A stretch of DNA of 32,892 nt from Spirochaetales bacterium (GTDB taxonomy: Bacteria > Spirochaetota > Spirochaetia > JABEVK01). The stretch lies in the NCBI GenBank assembly GCA_947478845.1, contig CANJXC010000021.1, forward strand, positions 1 through 32,892, written 5' to 3'. A program made the translations under genes and the position numbers. Position 1 is the stretch's first letter; every line of letters starts with the position of its first letter. Positions 6,892 through 15,333 of this stretch are shown here, piece by piece. Below the pieces are notes generated by a model. That model saw only the letters and a program-made list of their open reading frames with translations. It had not been told where the DNA came from and searched no databases.

Positions 6892-6969
6892 TGATCTACC
6901 CCCAAAGAACTGGACACTTTTTCTGGCAGAACTCGCATAATTGGCGAGACTGGCAGGGGGAGCGGACCG

Positions 6970-7236
6970 ATGAGGAAGTCGACTTACAAGGACGAGCAGA
7001 TCGCCTTTGCATTGAAACAGGCGGACACGGGGACGCCAGTGGCCGAGGTCGTGCGCAAAATTGGTATCAGCGAACAGACCTTCTACCGATGGAAGAAGAA
7101 GTTCGGCGACATGCTGCCTAGCGAGGTCAAGAAGCTTCGGCGGCTTGAAGAGGAGAATCGGCCACTGAAGCAGTTGGTGGCCGACCTGAGCTTGGACAAG
7201 GCCATGCTCCAGGACGTTCTTTCAAAAAAAGTCTGA
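6970..7236 (+). CDS. IS3-family transposase OrfA (HTH protein)
   Basis: 88 residues beginning MRKSTYKDEQIAFAL, with the helix-turn-helix block GTPVAEVVRKIGISEQTFYRWKKK at about 18-42. This is followed by the leucine-rich helix LRRLEEENRPLKQLVADLSL and the ending DKAMLQDVLSKKV, typical of IS407-group OrfA. The 3' end carries the slippery run A7 (7224-7230), the usual site of the -1 frameshift that fuses OrfA to OrfB; the following -1 frame does read as OrfB (LTPTRRRELAENL). OrfA itself looks intact, but its partner is deleted, so at most it could act as a DNA-binding protein or inhibitor. Confidence 0.85.
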   Translation: MRKSTYKDEQIAFALKQADTGTPVAEVVRKIGISEQTFYRWKKKFGDMLPSEVKKLRRLEEENRPLKQLVADLSLDKAMLQDVLSKKV

Positions 7237-7846
7237 CGCCTACCCGGAGGCGTGAGCTGGCCGAGAACCTGATCGCCGTGTACCGGGTGAGTGTCAGGAG
7301 GGCCTGCAGACTGGTAGAGATGGACAAGTCGACCTAACGAGGCCTGGGCGGGCGATCTTGATCGCCTGGATTCTTGTGTTGGCTCAACTGTTCAATGGCA
7401 AGCGGTTCCGAACCCTGACCTTGGTCGACACCTACACCCGTGAGTGCCTGGCAACGCATGTCGGCCAATCGATCCGTGGCATCGACGTGGTGTCCGTGCT
7501 GGAGGGTCTGATTCCGCTCCGGGGCAAGCCCGAACATATCCGGGTCGACAATGGTCCCGAATTCATCTCGAAGGATTTGGACCTCTGGGCGTACTCCAAC
7601 GGCGTTCACTTGAGGTTTTCTCGACCGGGAAAGCCGACGGACAACGCTTTTATGGAGTCGTTCAACGGAAGCCTTCGAGACGAATGCCTCCAGTCGAACT
7701 GGTTTCTGTCTCTGGACGACGCAAAGGACAAGATCGAAACTTGGCGAAGGGACTATAATGAATACCGGCCGCATAGTTCGCTAGGGTACAAAACCCCGGC
7801 CGACTTTGCAGCCCGCTACGAGGCACCAGACAGCCTGTCAGGCTGA
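7233..7846 (+). pseudogene. IS3-family transposase OrfB, deleted and frameshifted
   Basis: The first fragment (7233-7337) reads LTPTRRRELAENLIAVYRVS and continues through RRACRLVEMDKST to a TAA. It lies in the -1 frame relative to OrfA and matches the OrfB N-terminus. The second fragment, in another frame from about 7355, contains QLFNGKRFRTLTLVD, the second catalytic Asp in RVDNGPEF, the catalytic Glu in FMESFNGSLRDECL and the closing NEYRPHSSLGYKTPADF. Roughly 100 codons between them are missing, including the W-x-x-D segment with the first catalytic Asp, so the DDE triad is broken. Seen directly; loss of transposition is inferred. Confidence 0.85.
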
Positions 7847-7948
7847 CAAAACTAACATTTTAAGTGTCCAGGGAATGGGGTACGGTCACTATGTCTGTGT
7901 TAAACGGGTTGGGCACGTTTTTGGATTATCTGAGGCTTCTACCGAGAG

Positions 7949-8854
7949 TTATTTTAAACCTATACCACGACGCAACCATGTTCCAATGTTACTCACTGGG
8001 GCAGTTATTCGCCAACTTGTTGAACAGATGAGCGCTCGCACTTGGTTATCGCGATCCGTCACGGCCTGGTTGAGGCTGGCGATCTGCCCGTCGCGATCCG
8101 TCACCGCCTGGTTGAGGCTGGCGATCTGCCCGTCGCGATCCGTCACCGCCTGGTTGAGGCTGGCGATCTGCCCGTCGCGATCCGTCACCGCCTGGTTGAG
8201 GTGGGCAACTTGATGCTTTAGCTCGTTTAACTGAAAATGTTCCAATTGCCGTGAACCGAGCGAGGCAAAATAACTTATTAATTTTTGCTTTTCGAGTGAA
8301 TTGGATTTGAGCCAAACCAGTTTATGAGCAGCTGGTGCATTGTTTAGTTGCAACACTCCAAGCCCATGCGAATGCACAAACTCCAAGTTATTCGGGTAAC
8401 AGGCTTGCAGTTCTTCCCAAAGTTTCCACACACCAAAATTTCGCTCACGAACATTGGTGTCGTGAAATAAGACAACCGCACCGGGCGCAAGTTTTGGTAG
8501 CCATGTTTCAAAATCATGGCGTACCGCCTCATAAGTGTGTAACCCGTCAATGTGCAACAACTGTATTGATTCACCGTTGAAATAGGTTGCGGCATCATCA
8601 AAAGTCGTCCGCAACAACCGAGAAAATTCAGCATAGGTTTCCTGATGATTTGCATTAACTTTGGCAAAAATCTCATCACCATATTTACCGGCATGTTCAT
8701 CGCCCTGCCATGTATCAACGGCATAGCATTTAGTCGAAAGACCGGCCTCGACAACTGACTGGCAAAACGAAAAATAGGAATTACCGGTATGCGTACCAAG
8801 CTCAACAAATATTTTTGGTGATACTTCTTGGATCACCCACGCTGCAAAGGGCAA
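7949..8854 (-). CDS. Class I SAM methyltransferase (Methyltransf_24 type) with repeat-encoded coiled coil
   Basis: The catalytic part shows a Rossmann methyltransferase: motif I FVELGTHTGNSYFSFC near the start, then AVDTWQGDEHAG, LLHIDGLHTYEAVRHDFETW and PGAVVLFHDTNV. This is the pattern of sugar or peptide methyltransferases in polysaccharide clusters. From about residue 220 the protein becomes a coiled coil built of near-identical 14-residue units LNQAVTDRDGQIAS. It ends in STSWRITAPVSNIGTWLRRG, a tail like that of the second methyltransferase in this island. The frame is open upstream of the TTG at 8854 as far as about 9001, and the upstream residues (HPNAWVGHLPFAAW) look like genuine family sequence without an in-frame start. 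An ATG at 9021 lies in another frame, so the 5' end may carry a frameshift. Probably acts at the inner membrane face on a glycan; substrate unknown. Confidence 0.75.
   Translation of the reverse strand: MPFAAWVIQEVSPKIFVELGTHTGNSYFSFCQSVVEAGLSTKCYAVDTWQGDEHAGKYGDEIFAKVNANHQETYAEFSRLLRTTFDDAATYFNGESIQLLHIDGLHTYEAVRHDFETWLPKLAPGAVVLFHDTNVRERNFGVWKLWEELQACYPNNLEFVHSHGLGVLQLNNAPAAHKLVWLKSNSLEKQKLISYFASLGSRQLEHFQLNELKHQVAHLNQAVTDRDGQIASLNQAVTDRDGQIASLNQAVTDRDGQIASLNQAVTDRDNQVRALICSTSWRITAPVSNIGTWLRRGIGLK
8051..8207. repeat. 42-bp tandem repeat, about 3.7 copies, in a methyltransferase gene
   Basis: Copies start at 8051, 8093, 8135 and 8177 and are almost identical; copy 1 differs by CACGGCC for CACCGCC, and the last diverges after TGAGG. 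The unit is 14 codons, so gain or loss of a copy keeps the frame. It encodes two heptads per unit, with V and I at one core position and L and R at the other. Confidence 0.95.
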
Positions 8855-9115
8855 GTGCCCAACCCACGCGTTTGGGTGTTGAAGTGAGTTAGGGGTAAAT
8901 GCTGCTGCTAAAATAAAATTGTTTGGGATAATGTCATTGCCTCTGACGTTTGTAGCTTTACTTCGAGCATTGGTATACCTAGCAGACCGGATGCAACGCT
9001 GCTAGATTCTGATTTACTCATAGAACTGTGATCCCGGCGCGAGCTGCGGTGTGGACTGAGTGGAAGATCTTGCATGAAAAAGGACGAAAGTAGGAATAGT
9101 CACCCGCCGTGCATT

Positions 9116-9833: not shown

Positions 9834-10468
9834 TCACTCACCAAAAACTGGATCGAGCTTCATTATACGGCTAAGCCCGCCACCGTCGGGTCCGATGGGA
9901 AAATCCTCAATGACCCAAATAGACCCGTCCGGCACCTGCGACACATGTCTGATGCGCATACCCATTGGTATTTCCTGCGAGACCTCCACAGGATCGTTAA
10001 AAAAACTGAGCCGTATCAGCATTTGGCTCTTCAGCCCTCAAATCGAGTTCCCGTTAAGAAGAACATTCCTGCCGGGACCCGTGAGATTTCCCAAGCATAA
10101 CGCGTCGCCGAAAAGCCGTTACCTGGCCGATGATCAGGGATATCGTCGGTTGCCGAGCCATAGTTGCGACCATTCGACACCAATGGCCAACCATAATTAG
10201 ATCCAGCGAGGATCAAATTAACCTCATAGCCCCCTTGAGGGCCGTGCTTAGTCTCCCATAACCTGCCATCCGGAGAAAAGGCGATCCCATAGACGTTTCT
10301 ATGGCCTATCTTCCAAATTTCTGCACGCATACCGGCCTCTATGTGGGTATTGGAAGGTTTGTCGGATGGATATCGTTGGTCGTAGCCAGCGCGACCTTCA
10401 CCTACACGTCGGAGTTGTGTTTCCGGCGTATTCGCTTTGTCATGCCCGCGTCTGGGACGCAGCAACAT
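9834..10468 (-). pseudogene. PQQ-dependent sugar dehydrogenase (GSDH/aldose dehydrogenase family), broken
   Basis: The first part (10468-10031) contains EIWKIGHRNVYGIAFSPDGR, LWETKHGPQGGYEVNLI, AGSNYGWPLVSNGRNYG and AGMFFLTGTRFEG, hallmarks of the soluble glucose/sorbosone dehydrogenase beta-propeller. It then hits TGA at about 10033. The next frame continues QMLIRLSFFNDP, MGMRIRHVSQVPDGSIWVIED and SRIMKLDPVFGE, the expected C-terminal blades. One missing base in GAGGGCTGAAGAGCC would join them as EGW-KSQML. The N-terminal half of the ~400-residue family is absent or unrecognisable upstream of 10468. The family oxidises sugars in the periplasm with PQQ. Here the gene is a relic, and the missing N-terminus means repairing one base would not restore it. 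Confidence 0.7.
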
Positions 10469-10623: not shown

Positions 10624-12633
10624 TTACCATGCACGCGCCGCCTCCAAAGCTAGGGAAGCGAGGCGCCGCCAATGCTCAACGAATACGTCCTCGGAGAAGG
10701 CGCGCGCTACTTCGGCCGCCGCACGTCGTACCGCTGTGAGTCGCCCGGGTGCCGCTAGGGAAGTTAGTACCCGAGCCTCCAGATCGTCTAACTCACGATA
10801 AAGATACCCTGTCACTCCGTCCCTTACAAATGAAGGTGGCCCGCCATTCGAGACCACGAAGGGGGCCATCCCGTGGCTCATCGCCTCCAGCACACTGATG
10901 CCAAAATGCTCGCAGGCTTGGGGCTCAATCTCTTCATCAACCCCATACCCAGCCGCGTGAATGTAGATATGGCCACGCGACAGGACGCCCTGGATGTCCT
11001 GATGGGTCGCGTTGGCATGGAAGGTGACAGGCAGCCCGTAGGCAAGACGCTGGAGCCACTGGAAATAATTCCGATGCTCTTCACCGATGTTAATACTGCC
11101 AATAAGATCAAGCGTTACCGGCACGCCCCGCGCCACCAGGCGGCTGATTAGTTCGATCGCCACTTCATGGCGCTTGTTGTGCCCGCCGGTGAAGAACCGT
11201 CCGATCAACACAAAGCGGTAAGGCTCTGCCAGCGGCGTCGTTTGGCTCCCGGCCGGAGCAAGGTTCACCGGCGGTGCGACGACTTCGATTGGGTGATCGG
11301 GAAGTCCGTGTCGGGTAAACGCACGCCGCAAGTGCCCCTTCACGAAGTCGGAATAGACAATGGTGCTGTCAAAACCGCATAAGTTGCCGCTGCGTCGTAG
11401 CCGTTGGTCTTCAGCGATGGGAAAAGGAAACTGACAAACATAGTGACTGTGGGGTGAGAAGGCCGGATAGGGAGGCAGAACCTCATTGCTCATCGTCACA
11501 GAGAAGGCGATCGGCCCGAGTTCCCTGATGTCGCGTCGGCGCGTGATCTTCAAGGCCGATAGGTCAAGGTCGAGGTCCCTGCCCACAGCGGCCATTCGCG
11601 TAGAACTGTAGATCTCCTCCAGGAGCAGGTGTACCTCGAATTCCGGCATGAGAGCGCGGGCGGCGGTGAGGAGGTAGCGCTCCCCGCCTCCGGGCGTAAT
11701 TGGGAAAGGGGTGTAGAAAACGGCGCGTGGCCGGCCTAACACGTGCACTGCTGGGCTGGGCAAGGCGGGCCGTTCCCAGAGTGCAGCGGCATCGCGCGCA
11801 GCGAGGTGCGCTCCCCAGCGGTTAAGGAAATGCCCGCGATTAACCTCGATAATGGTGTCTAGGCCAAGCGATTGGCGATACGTGGAAGAGGTTGCGTTTT
11901 CGAGATGGATTACCTGTGAGCGGCTGCAATAACCGACCAGCAGACTGCGCGCAGCGATTTTGAGGCAGAGATCCAAATCCTCGTAATACGCCGGCTCATA
12001 CACATATTCGAAGCCACCGAGTTCGAGGAAGAGGTCCCGGCGAACCAACAAGCAGGCGGCCGAGCAGTAGTCAACGACGTGGTCCTCGGACACGTCTGCC
12101 GCCGCATAGGCGCCCGACTTGCCGACCTGTACAACGAAACCATCCGATCCCACGAAGCCGCCCGCCTCCTGAAGGCGCCCATCCGGATAGAGGAAGCGAG
12201 GCCCAACCGCTCCAATCCGATGGTCTCTCTTGAGGCGCGCCATGAGCGGTTCAAGCCAACCTTGCGTCACGAAGGCATCGTTGTTGAGGAAGAGTACGTA
12301 TTCGCCGCGCGCCGCCTCGACACCGATGTTGTTGCCGTCCCCGAAGAAGCGGTTGACGTCGAGCCGGAGCACCCGGGCCGGGCCGTCCAGTTTGAGCAGC
12401 GTGGAGTAGTTTTCGATGGATGAGCCGTTGTCGACCACGACAATCTCGTAGCGGTGCCCGGCCGAGTGCATCCATAGGTTTCGCAGACAGATCTTTGTCA
12501 GGTCCGGTTTGTTGTAGTTAAGGATGATGATCGAAACTTCCGGTGTGTCCGCATCGTAAAAGGCACTGCCCACCTCCGCGGACCTCTCCTGCGCCTCGTC
12601 CATCCCGAGACGACCGCCTTCGAGCATCATCAT
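10624..12633 (-). CDS. Two-domain glycosyltransferase (GT2 + GT4 fusion)
   Basis: 669 residues with two separate glycosyltransferase domains. Residues ~30-270 are a GT-A fold GT2 of rhamnosyltransferase type: VSIIILNYNKPDLT, VVVDNGSS, YVLFLNNDAFVT (the DxD-like metal site as NND) and YYEDLDLCLK. Residues ~300-660 are a GT-B fold GT4: AVFYTPFPITPGGGERYLL, FVLIGRFFTGGHNKRHEVAI and the nucleotide-sugar block EHFGISVLEAMSHGMAPFVV. Such fusions add two consecutive sugars to a surface glycan at the cytoplasmic side of the inner membrane. The ATG at 12633 overlaps the stop of the preceding methyltransferase (ATGA), so the two are translationally coupled. It is followed by ~150 bp without a recognised gene and then by the broken sugar dehydrogenase. 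The sugar donors cannot be read from sequence. Confidence 0.88.
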   Translation of the reverse strand: MMMLEGGRLGMDEAQERSAEVGSAFYDADTPEVSIIILNYNKPDLTKICLRNLWMHSAGHRYEIVVVDNGSSIENYSTLLKLDGPARVLRLDVNRFFGDGNNIGVEAARGEYVLFLNNDAFVTQGWLEPLMARLKRDHRIGAVGPRFLYPDGRLQEAGGFVGSDGFVVQVGKSGAYAAADVSEDHVVDYCSAACLLVRRDLFLELGGFEYVYEPAYYEDLDLCLKIAARSLLVGYCSRSQVIHLENATSSTYRQSLGLDTIIEVNRGHFLNRWGAHLAARDAAALWERPALPSPAVHVLGRPRAVFYTPFPITPGGGERYLLTAARALMPEFEVHLLLEEIYSSTRMAAVGRDLDLDLSALKITRRRDIRELGPIAFSVTMSNEVLPPYPAFSPHSHYVCQFPFPIAEDQRLRRSGNLCGFDSTIVYSDFVKGHLRRAFTRHGLPDHPIEVVAPPVNLAPAGSQTTPLAEPYRFVLIGRFFTGGHNKRHEVAIELISRLVARGVPVTLDLIGSINIGEEHRNYFQWLQRLAYGLPVTFHANATHQDIQGVLSRGHIYIHAAGYGVDEEIEPQACEHFGISVLEAMSHGMAPFVVSNGGPPSFVRDGVTGYLYRELDDLEARVLTSLAAPGRLTAVRRAAAEVARAFSEDVFVEHWRRLASLALEAARAW

Positions 12634-13727
12634 CGCGTGATCCTCCGGATGGACCGGACCAAAACGCGCATCGGCCCTGTCAGGCGCCAGCTCGTGGAGG
12701 TGCGTATAGCCTCGATTCGTTCGGCGAAATGGGCCTCACGCGCGGCTAGGTGGGCCTTGGCCGCCTCTTGTTGTTCCGCGAACGCGATCTGAGCTGCAGC
12801 GTATTCCGCATTTATACTGTTCTGTCGTTCCCGCGCCGCCGTCAGCATGGCGCGAAGATAACCGCACTCGTGATCCATCTGCTGAAGCCGGCTCTGTTCC
12901 TCGGCGAGACGAACACGCTCTTCCGTCAACAGGATACGCAGCTGGTTCTGCTCATCATGGGCGAGCGTCGCGTCTGTATGGAGGCAGGTCGGCAGGCTAG
13001 CCGCCGCCCCCACGATGGCGTGAGGCGAGGCTACGGCAACGAGGTAGGGTGCGTGAGGCAGACCCTGCCGTTGCCGGAAGAGCGAGCCATCCGCGGTCGA
13101 AAAGCTTTCCACCCCGAAAGAGTCGCTCGAAGCGCATGCCAGTACCGAGCCTTCGAAAACCAACTGCTCATAGAGTCGGACTCGGGAAAAGCGCCGTCGA
13201 AGTAAGGCCTCGAACTCCTCAGGGCTCAGCTCCTTGAGGTGATAAGGGTTATTGTAGCCAGCTTCCTCCGAGTAGACGCGCCGGTCGGGCGTAGAGACGA
13301 CGAAGATGCCGTCCGGGCGCAGCACCCGCATGACCTCGTCCAGCAGCGTGTCATGTTCGGCGACGTGCTCGAGGGTTTCGTAGCATACCACCACATCGAC
13401 GCTGGCATCGGCGACCGGCATGGCCAGCACGCTTCCTATGCGGTATGTAAGGTTCTCTCGTCGGTAGAGTTTAGTGGCGAAGGTAACCGACGCCTCGTCG
13501 ATATCCACGCCAACCACCGAGCGCGCAACGGAGGCCAGAAGGGCAGAACCGTATCCCTCGCCTGAAGCGATATCCAGCACGTCCTTGGCGCGGCAGAGAC
13601 TCTTGGCGAAGAGGTAGCGGTGATAATGCTCGACACCAATGTTGCCTTGTAAGCCGGTTACGTAACGCTCCCCCGTGAACTCCATGCGCGCCAAAGGCTC
13701 GGGTAAGCGGATGTCCTCTTTATTCAT
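12630..13727 (-). CDS. SAM-dependent methyltransferase with C-terminal coiled coil
   Basis: 365 residues from the ATG at 13727, chosen because AAGGAG lies six nt upstream; an earlier in-frame start at 13781 has no such site. Motif I is VLDIASGEGYGSALLA, followed by VVGVDIDEASVTFA, VVVCYETLEHVAEHDTLL and VMRVLRPDGIFVVSTPD, a Methyltransf_11/25-type domain over residues ~30-190. Residues ~260-345 are a charged, Ala/Glu/Gln/Arg-rich coiled coil. The end reads TSTSWRLTGPMRVLVRSIRR, the same type of tail as the methyltransferase at 7949-8854. A methyltransferase plus coiled coil beside glycosyltransferases recalls WbdD-type chain-terminating enzymes of O-antigen export, but this protein has no visible kinase domain. 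The target glycan is unknown. Confidence 0.85.
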   Translation of the reverse strand: MNKEDIRLPEPLARMEFTGERYVTGLQGNIGVEHYHRYLFAKSLCRAKDVLDIASGEGYGSALLASVARSVVGVDIDEASVTFATKLYRRENLTYRIGSVLAMPVADASVDVVVCYETLEHVAEHDTLLDEVMRVLRPDGIFVVSTPDRRVYSEEAGYNNPYHLKELSPEEFEALLRRRFSRVRLYEQLVFEGSVLACASSDSFGVESFSTADGSLFRQRQGLPHAPYLVAVASPHAIVGAAASLPTCLHTDATLAHDEQNQLRILLTEERVRLAEEQSRLQQMDHECGYLRAMLTAARERQNSINAEYAAAQIAFAEQQEAAKAHLAAREAHFAERIEAIRTSTSWRLTGPMRVLVRSIRRITR

Positions 13728-13849
13728 GTCAGTCTCCTTGGAACCGATTTTCTGGGCCGATTGCGCAGTGCTGGGTGACAACTATGCTGGCCCCAGGTAT
13801 TCGGACCACCCTTTGAGCTTGGTGGTGTAGACTATTTCTTGGGGGTAGC

Positions 13850-14547
13850 ATGGATAAGCGGCGGTCGTTCAGCGACAAGATGAAGTTCGAAGTTTTGTTG
13901 GAAGTTCTGAAGGGTCAGCGGACGATGGCCGAAATCGCCAGTCAGTTTTAAGTGCATCCGATCCAGGTCGGTCGGTGGAAGAAAGAGTTCCTGGAAAGCG
14001 GACCCTCGATGTTCTCGTCGGCCAAATCAGCGAACGAGCGCCTGTAGATCCGCAGACAATGCGAGCTCTTGGAAATCAGTCGCTCGAGCTACTACTACGT
14101 GCCCCGGCCGGAGTCCGAAGCGACGATCAAGCTGATGAACCGCATCGACGAAATCTTCACCAACAACCTAGACTACCGCAGAAGGATGATGCGCAAAGTG
14201 CTCATCCGTGAGGACGGGCTGTACGTGAATCGCAAGCGGATCCGCCGTTTGATGCAGAAGATGGGCATCTGCGCGATTTATCCGGGTAAAAACATCAGCA
14301 AGCCGGGCAAAGGACTGCTCCACAAGATTTACCCCTACCTTCTGAGGCACCTCAGCATCACGGTACCCATCCACGTCTGGTGCACCGACATCACCTACAT
14401 ACGGATGAAGCGGGGGTTCATTTACCTGGTCGCCGTAATGGACTGGGGCACGAAGAAGATCCTCTCGTGGGAAATCTCCCAGTCGCTGGACAACCGCTTC
14501 TACGTCTCGGCGCTCAAGCCAGCCCTCGCCCAAAGGGGGCCAGCAAA
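13850..14547 (+). pseudogene. Decayed IS3-family transposase (OrfA and OrfB remnants in one frame)
   Basis: From ATG 13850 one frame reads MDKRRSFSDKMKFEVLLEVL, then TMAEIASQF-stop-VHPIQVGRWKKEFL (TAA 13949-13951), then SAKSANERL-stop (TAG 14045-14047). It continues as OrfB: IRRQCELLEISRSSYYYVPR, VNRKRIRRLMQKMGICAIYP, YPYLLRHLSITVPIHVWCTD (first catalytic Asp) and GFIYLVAVMDWGTKKILSW. The C-terminal part of OrfA and the N-terminal part of OrfB are deleted between the second stop and the OrfB block. After ALKPALAQRGPA the homology ends, so the second Asp and the Glu of the DDE triad are lost. At this point it meets the truncated glycosyltransferase gene head to head. Dead element; the outer ends were not located. 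Confidence 0.85.
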
Positions 14548-15333
14548 GTCGGAGACCGCGCCCAAGAACAAGACATTTGTTGCTTGAACCTCTACGGCGA
14601 ACCGACGTAATTGAGCCATTTCGGGTCCGTCTCCCATCAGCACAATGGGGGCTGAAACCTTGGATGCTCCTTCGATTAAGTATCGAAGGCCCTTGTAGTA
14701 GCGAAAAACTCCTACAAATGAAAAGAATCGCCCCCATTTCGACTTGTAGTCACAAACCTGCTGCGTGTCAGGCACGGGGTAAAAGGCTTGGTCCAGACCT
14801 AACGGAATGGATATCACTTTGCTTGGGTATCTACGCAAAAGTCGGCTGCTCTCGACGTACTTGGGGCTAGTAGCCACCAAAAACCGGGCTTGGGAAAACA
14901 GGAACGACTGAAGCGGTCTATACAGCTTGAGGATAGACTTCTGCCTCACAATGTCGCTGTGATAGGTGACCACTAGCGGCACTTTCGAACCGCTAAACCA
15001 ATACAGCAAGTCGCCAAAGGGCCAAGGAAAATGTAGCTGGACAACATCGAAGCGCCTTACCAAGCGGCGGAACTGAAACAGGGCAGACCAACTGAAAGGC
15101 GTGGAGGCAATGGTAAAGTCAGCGGGCACCCGATGAATCACAATGCCCTCATACACCAGCCGCTCGAACTGCTTGGCGGTGTTAGACAAGGTAAAGATCT
15201 CGGAACGCACACCTTCAACCTCCAGCCCACGACAAAGCTCGAGCAGGCTCCGCTCGATGCCGCCGTAACTGTCAGGATAAAAGGTCTTGTAAACGTGGAG
15301 TACCCGTAGGATGCCGAACTTAGCCAACAGCAA
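14500..15333 (-). pseudogene. GT4 glycosyltransferase, C-terminally truncated
   Basis: The N-terminal domain is a clear GT4 of GT-B fold: LRVLHVYKTFYPDSYGGIER, VVQLHFPWPFGDLLYWFSGS, VTYHSDIVRQ and LFSQARFLVATSPKYVE. The second domain starts with FFSFVGVFRYYKGLRYLIEG and IVLMGDGPEMAQLRRFA, then stops being GT-like after VLFLGAVSD. The last ~15 codons (FAGPLWARAGLSAET) are read from the antisense of the IS3 remnant. About 100 residues are missing, including the region that should carry the E-x7-E donor site, so the enzyme is probably inactive. The likely start is TTG 15333. It faces the coupled methyltransferase/glycosyltransferase pair across the IS relic and was probably part of the same polysaccharide cluster. 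Confidence 0.75.

Follow-up and report, generated by a model that had tools for sequence, protein, structure and literature searches.

The window analysed here, a stretch of 32,892 nt taken at its full length, carries on its minus strand a gene for a methyltransferase followed by a coiled coil and a short conserved tail, with a tandem repeat inside the coil. A scrap of a second gene lies directly upstream and a damaged mobile element downstream. The features on which the analysis draws are listed below.

7949–8932, minus: Methyltransf_24 – coiled coil – SWR-tail gene, counted from ATT (Pfam, ORFs, homolog alignment)
8930–8932, minus: ATT where homologs have their ATG start codon (alignment with homologs)
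8456–8806, minus: Methyltransf_24 domain (PF13578) with SAM motif VELGTHTG (Pfam, E 1.3e-28)
8024–8296, minus: single continuous helix of 91 residues, the coiled-coil segment (AlphaFold2; 3.5-residue hydrophobic periodicity)
8049–8201, minus: 42-bp tandem array, 3.6 copies, (LNQAVTDRDGQIAS)n (TRF and shuffles)
7952–8023, minus: STSWRITAPVSNIGTWLRRGIGLK tail with the conserved SWRxTxPxR motif and a short cationic helix (homolog comparison, AlphaFold2)
8932–9015, minus: remnant of the wzt 3′ end (KSESSSVASGLLGIPMLEVKLQTSEA), about 84 bp, stopping abruptly upstream (homology to relatives)
6911–7870, plus: defective IS3-type element with HTH_Tnp_1 and rve fragments and tggacactt terminal inverted repeats
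10624–12633, minus: gene for a GT2-GT1/GT4 glycosyltransferase, which overlaps the next gene listed at that gene's end (ORFs, Pfam)
12630–13781, minus: another methyltransferase gene (Methyltransf_11), whose product has a heptad-like stretch towards its C-terminus and carries the same SWR tail (TSTSWRLTGPMR)

Homologs of the coil-bearing methyltransferase start at an ATG about 26 codons upstream of the TTG at 8854, and at that position the window reads ATT within flanking DNA that is clearly homologous. The TTG itself, taken as the start by the ORF caller, was rejected because it falls inside the conserved LPFAAW block. AlphaFold2 (13-sequence input) models a Rossmann-type methyltransferase part at moderate confidence, then an unbroken helix over residues 214–304 of the translation of 7952–8935 (pLDDT mostly 76–88), which is interrupted at STSW before a short helix closes the chain. 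A rod of 91 residues is predicted to be about 13.5 nm long. An earlier note on this DNA, made from the letters alone, had staked its structural argument on a continuous coiled coil, which the model indeed predicts. It had also described a membrane-type C-terminal tail; a tail does follow the methyltransferase and the coil, though its character is that of the conserved SWRxTxPxR motif. The protein carries PF13578, the FxxLG anchor, the coil and the S-W-[RK]-x-T-x-P-x-R tail, except that this copy has serine in place of the last arginine, which 58 of 60 homologs retain; the protein ends 22 residues past SW with no C-terminal GT2 modules. A fold search with the model returned class I O-methyltransferases, with MeT1 of Mycobacterium hassiacum, a sugar O-methyltransferase, as the best match for the methyltransferase part (E 1e-5, 18% identity). 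This match is weak (whole-model TM 0.35), and MeT1 further differs in having no coil and in belonging to another pathway. A sequence search against solved structures in the PDB found no methyltransferase relative.

Across the whole window TRF reports a single array (8049–8201, period 42, 3.6 copies, 99% match) with a score of 299, against a best score of 60 in 30 mononucleotide shuffles of the same window. Three units are identical, and the partial fourth carries one substitution, GCG/GCC, which is silent (alanine). The earlier note had placed an in-frame 42-bp repeat at 8051–8207 with two heptads in each 14-codon unit; the TRF call with its three identical units confirms the repeat, the coordinates were correct to 2–6 bases, and the translation, in frame with the gene that stops at 7949, bears out the heptads. 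An origin of the array in misassembly or in chance low complexity is very improbable: array copy counts can be wrong in an assembly such as this one of 22 contigs, but the array spans just 153 bp, close to read length, 42-bp arrays occur independently at the same place in homologs, and the shuffled windows fall far short of the observed score. The best homolog is a protein from a Comamonadaceae MAG (L002, 82% identity over 268 residues), whose methyltransferase domain differs from that of the window copy by dN 0.06 and dS 0.28 (pairwise dN/dS 0.22). That the repeat units are identical while the domain shows this synonymous divergence suggests that the 42-bp units were amplified after the split from L002.

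Homologs were gathered by protein-guided searches of genome collections, which yielded 60 distinct proteins in which a methyltransferase is followed by a coil and then by the SWRxTxPxR tail. Most come from Proteobacteria (Methylococcales, Gallionella, Burkholderiales, Chromatiales), with others from desulfo-bacteria, Chlorobiaceae and Bacteroidota. Non-pathogenic carriers include Methyloglobulus morosus (L010) and Methylomicrobium sp. RS1 (L012). Eleven proteins, the window protein included, stop within 40 residues of the SWR motif, and 48 of the 60 extend beyond the tail. A Pfam scan of six long homologs, L002 among them although it has no recognisable SWR tail, found GT2 in five (two also with GT1) and RgpF together with WbsX in one. 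Short forms end with the SWR motif, while in other members it is followed by further domains, often glycosyltransferases; a full-text literature search of open-access papers found nothing on the motif. All eight directly upstream neighbours that were scanned are wzt (ABC_tran and Wzt_C); Wzt C-terminal sequence also lies upstream of several more homologs. The idea that the IS element had cut off downstream GT domains of the window gene is superfluous, because the ten other short forms end 17–39 residues after SW. In the Chloroflexi homologs (L062–L066) the coil measures 168 or 179 residues, two lengths that lie one hendecad (11 residues) apart, and the tail is a variant, TRAWSMIQRW.

Coil length, measured between a conserved phenylalanine at the close of the methyltransferase domain and the tail's SW, ranges from 50 to 448 residues among the 60 homologs. 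Modulo 7, 34 lengths fall in class 0, followed by classes 4 (12), 1 (6), 5 (3), 3 (2), 6 (2) and 2 (1). When a single sequence is kept per 70% methyltransferase-identity cluster, 23 of 41 lengths are still in class 0 (P 5e-10), and in a tree-aware test on disjoint pairs 11 of 26 independent length changes are exact multiples of 7 (P 5e-4). A Rayleigh test places the strongest period at 3.5 and the next at 7; a strict 14-residue length rule was rejected, as there is no peak at 14. The runner-up class, +4, corresponds to a stutter (an 11-residue unit). A coiled coil can accommodate a stutter but is strained by an insertion of 2 or 6 residues (PMC5082667); lengths in classes 2 and 6 are among the least frequent in the 60 homologs. 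At its methyltransferase end and at its SWR-tail end alike, the coil keeps its hydrophobic face in a fixed phase (R 0.72 and 0.84). The heptad bias fades below 55–60% methyltransferase identity, with 10 of 26 and then 5 of 17 in class 0, and the E. coli coils longer than 450 residues do not show it (modulo 7: 4, 6, 0, 2). Heptad-multiple indels, too, gave no hits in the open-access full-text search.

At the DNA level, tandem arrays are present in 43 of 107 coils; the period is a multiple of 21 bp in 35 of them and exactly 42 bp in 18. The number of units, which the earlier note had proposed to compare among related genomes, is not constant. Two Bacteroidota genomes, L040 and L041, are 99.9% identical (6 mismatches in total over two aligned stretches, one of 5453 bp and one of 4279 bp), yet carry methyltransferase-gene coils of 364 and 343 residues, a difference of 63 bp or three 21-bp units; as both are metagenome assemblies, a collapsed repeat could possibly account for it. 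In E. coli a homolog occurs in 17 of 5,426 genomes, in an ABC-exporter capsule-like cluster that is mostly plasmid-borne; there, methyltransferase domains 97–100% identical in DNA are followed by coils of 550, 518 and 454 residues, the closest ones differing by in-frame blocks of 32 and 96 residues. Species thus do harbour alternative coil-length alleles, all of them in frame. Change of coil length through repeats without loss of frame, as the earlier note had proposed, thus holds for the family, in which lengths move mostly in heptad steps. The E. coli entries (L160, L161 and L163–L176, mostly plasmids) encode a Methyltransf_24 protein with a coil of about 450–555 residues and the same SWR tail.

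Coiled coils of this kind have a known use. In WbdD and related terminators the coil sets a fixed distance between enzyme and polymerase, so that chains are capped at a set length (PMC11231755, PMC5082667), and the characterised coiled-coil terminators adjoin wzt and are often fused to glycosyltransferases (PMC11231755). The window protein resembles WbdD of E. coli O9a in its N-terminal methyltransferase, long coil and putatively membrane-proximal C-terminal segment (PMC5082667), and its relatives do so in having wzt next to them (PMC11231755). It differs in that WbdD is a kinase-methyltransferase while the window protein is a Methyltransf_24 protein in which no kinase domain of the WbdD or O7 ORF6 type was found and which has no PDB sequence match to WbdD; its coil, unlike that of WbdD, is built of near-identical tandem units, and this copy is without exporter genes. 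ORF6 of Klebsiella pneumoniae O7, a methyltransferase-kinase followed by a coiled coil and two GT2 modules (PMC11231755), shares the order methyltransferase, coil, GT2 with the long homologs scanned, but carries kinase and CBM domains, whereas the window protein stops after the SWR tail. The E. coli O101/O162 methyltransferase with a C-terminal coiled coil, itself a proposed ruler (PMC13168486), is similar by description.

Domain anatomy, exporter linkage in relatives and heptad-biased lengths fit a ruler model of the WbdD type. Under such a model, the rod would space the methyltransferase from the membrane-proximal SWR tail and, in most members, from the fused C-terminal domains; its length would shift by gain or loss of in-frame units, usually whole heptads and occasionally 11-residue units, and steps in register would keep the coil continuous and its face aligned with both ends. 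Rod length would then most likely fix chain size at capping, by analogy with WbdD and Klebsiella O7 ORF6; methyl-capping, oligomerisation and the relation between coil length and chain length are what we infer from these systems. The coil could alternatively be a spacer of flexible length or an oligomerisation rod that drifts by slippage and does not set chain length, the heptad bias then stemming from the repeat unit (7 or 14 codons) and from coil stability. We regard this as unlikely, even though length varies almost tenfold across homologs, 21- and 42-bp units yield heptad steps by mutation alone, and the long E. coli coils differ by 32 and 96 residues. The face keeps its phase at both ends at any length and the genomic setting matches that of proven rulers, yet neither observation separates a spacer from a ruler. 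The mechanism of the earlier note, a ruler whose length is set by repeats, remains plausible and well supported for the family (lengths, alleles, wzt linkage) and is unlikely to operate today in the window gene.

This last point follows from the state of the window copy. A distant relative is present in just 2 of 392 other genomes of the phylum, and no homolog was found in six other genomes of the organism's family, from which we conclude that the gene was probably acquired horizontally; its source would be a proteobacterial-type, wzt-linked (ABC-transporter-dependent) O-antigen or capsule locus. GC content near the gene is 48%, against 55–60% across most of the window. The copy is not part of a complete wzm/wzt locus, having just the 84-bp wzt scrap beside it, and Wzt_C is absent from the whole genome, which is 99.75% complete. 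Downstream lies the 960-bp defective IS3-type element, and a glucose/sorbosone dehydrogenase fragment occupies 10031–10468. With wzt deleted, the start changed, a tail residue lost and an IS adjoining, the gene is probably a decaying orphan. Because wzt and Wzt_C are gone and the start codon and tail residue are lost, present chain-length control by this copy is unlikely, and the ruler role that the earlier note gave to the window gene itself is doubtful. The dN/dS of 0.22 to L002 does indicate selection over most of the gene's history, and it may still be translated from ATT. Whether the gene even now encodes a working methyltransferase that stands alone, has an adjustable coil, starts at ATT or TTG and acts on a surface glycan was weighed on the same evidence. 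Its frame is intact up to the stop, the dN/dS is low, ten other homologs are short forms, and 4 kb upstream there is another methyltransferase gene whose product has this tail; set against the changed start, the wzt scrap, the missing Wzt_C, the R-to-S change in the tail, and the adjoining IS and gene fragments, these points leave that reading rather improbable. On another contig (C3) of the same genome there is a Wzt-like ATPase without Wzt_C, which is a possible substitute partner for the window protein.

In all, the reading we prefer, at a probability of roughly two in three, is that the repeat is a recently amplified coil segment of a horizontally acquired glycan methyltransferase, that rod length in the family probably governs chain capping, and that the window copy is decaying. 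A broader proposition, towards which we are sceptical, is that this widespread and unnamed methyltransferase family is a self-adjusting ruler whose heptad repeats slip, so that surface-glycan length varies between strains. If true, polymer length would change in discrete steps of about 1 nm without frame loss, making the gene a contingency locus for polymer length and not for on/off expression. Coiled-coil glycan rulers are known from a small number of enterobacterial systems, where length was changed by engineering; the family would offer many natural rulers that differ by countable units, including the L040/L041 pair and the E. coli alleles, and such natural alleles make both the evolution of rulers by repeat slippage and the control of polymer size directly testable. 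The window copy, apparently a stranded relic, carries little weight here.

Other proteins of this genome bear the same tail. The methyltransferase at 12630–13781 and the glycosyltransferase at 10624–12633 resemble a split version of the fused methyltransferase-glycosyltransferase architecture of relatives. Contig C3 encodes a 144-residue coil-SWR protein without an enzyme domain (L147), flanked by the Wzt-like ATPase and a glycosyltransferase-like gene, and a 342-residue protein (L148) that ends in a coil-like stretch and ASWRLTAPLRALRQL, again an SWR tail. It may be that glycan enzymes in general dock through the SWR tail. Further along the window is an interrupted glycan gene: the GT4 glycosyltransferase gene at 14500–15333 (minus strand) has a truncated end, which is overlapped by a transposase fragment at 14069–14587 (plus strand).
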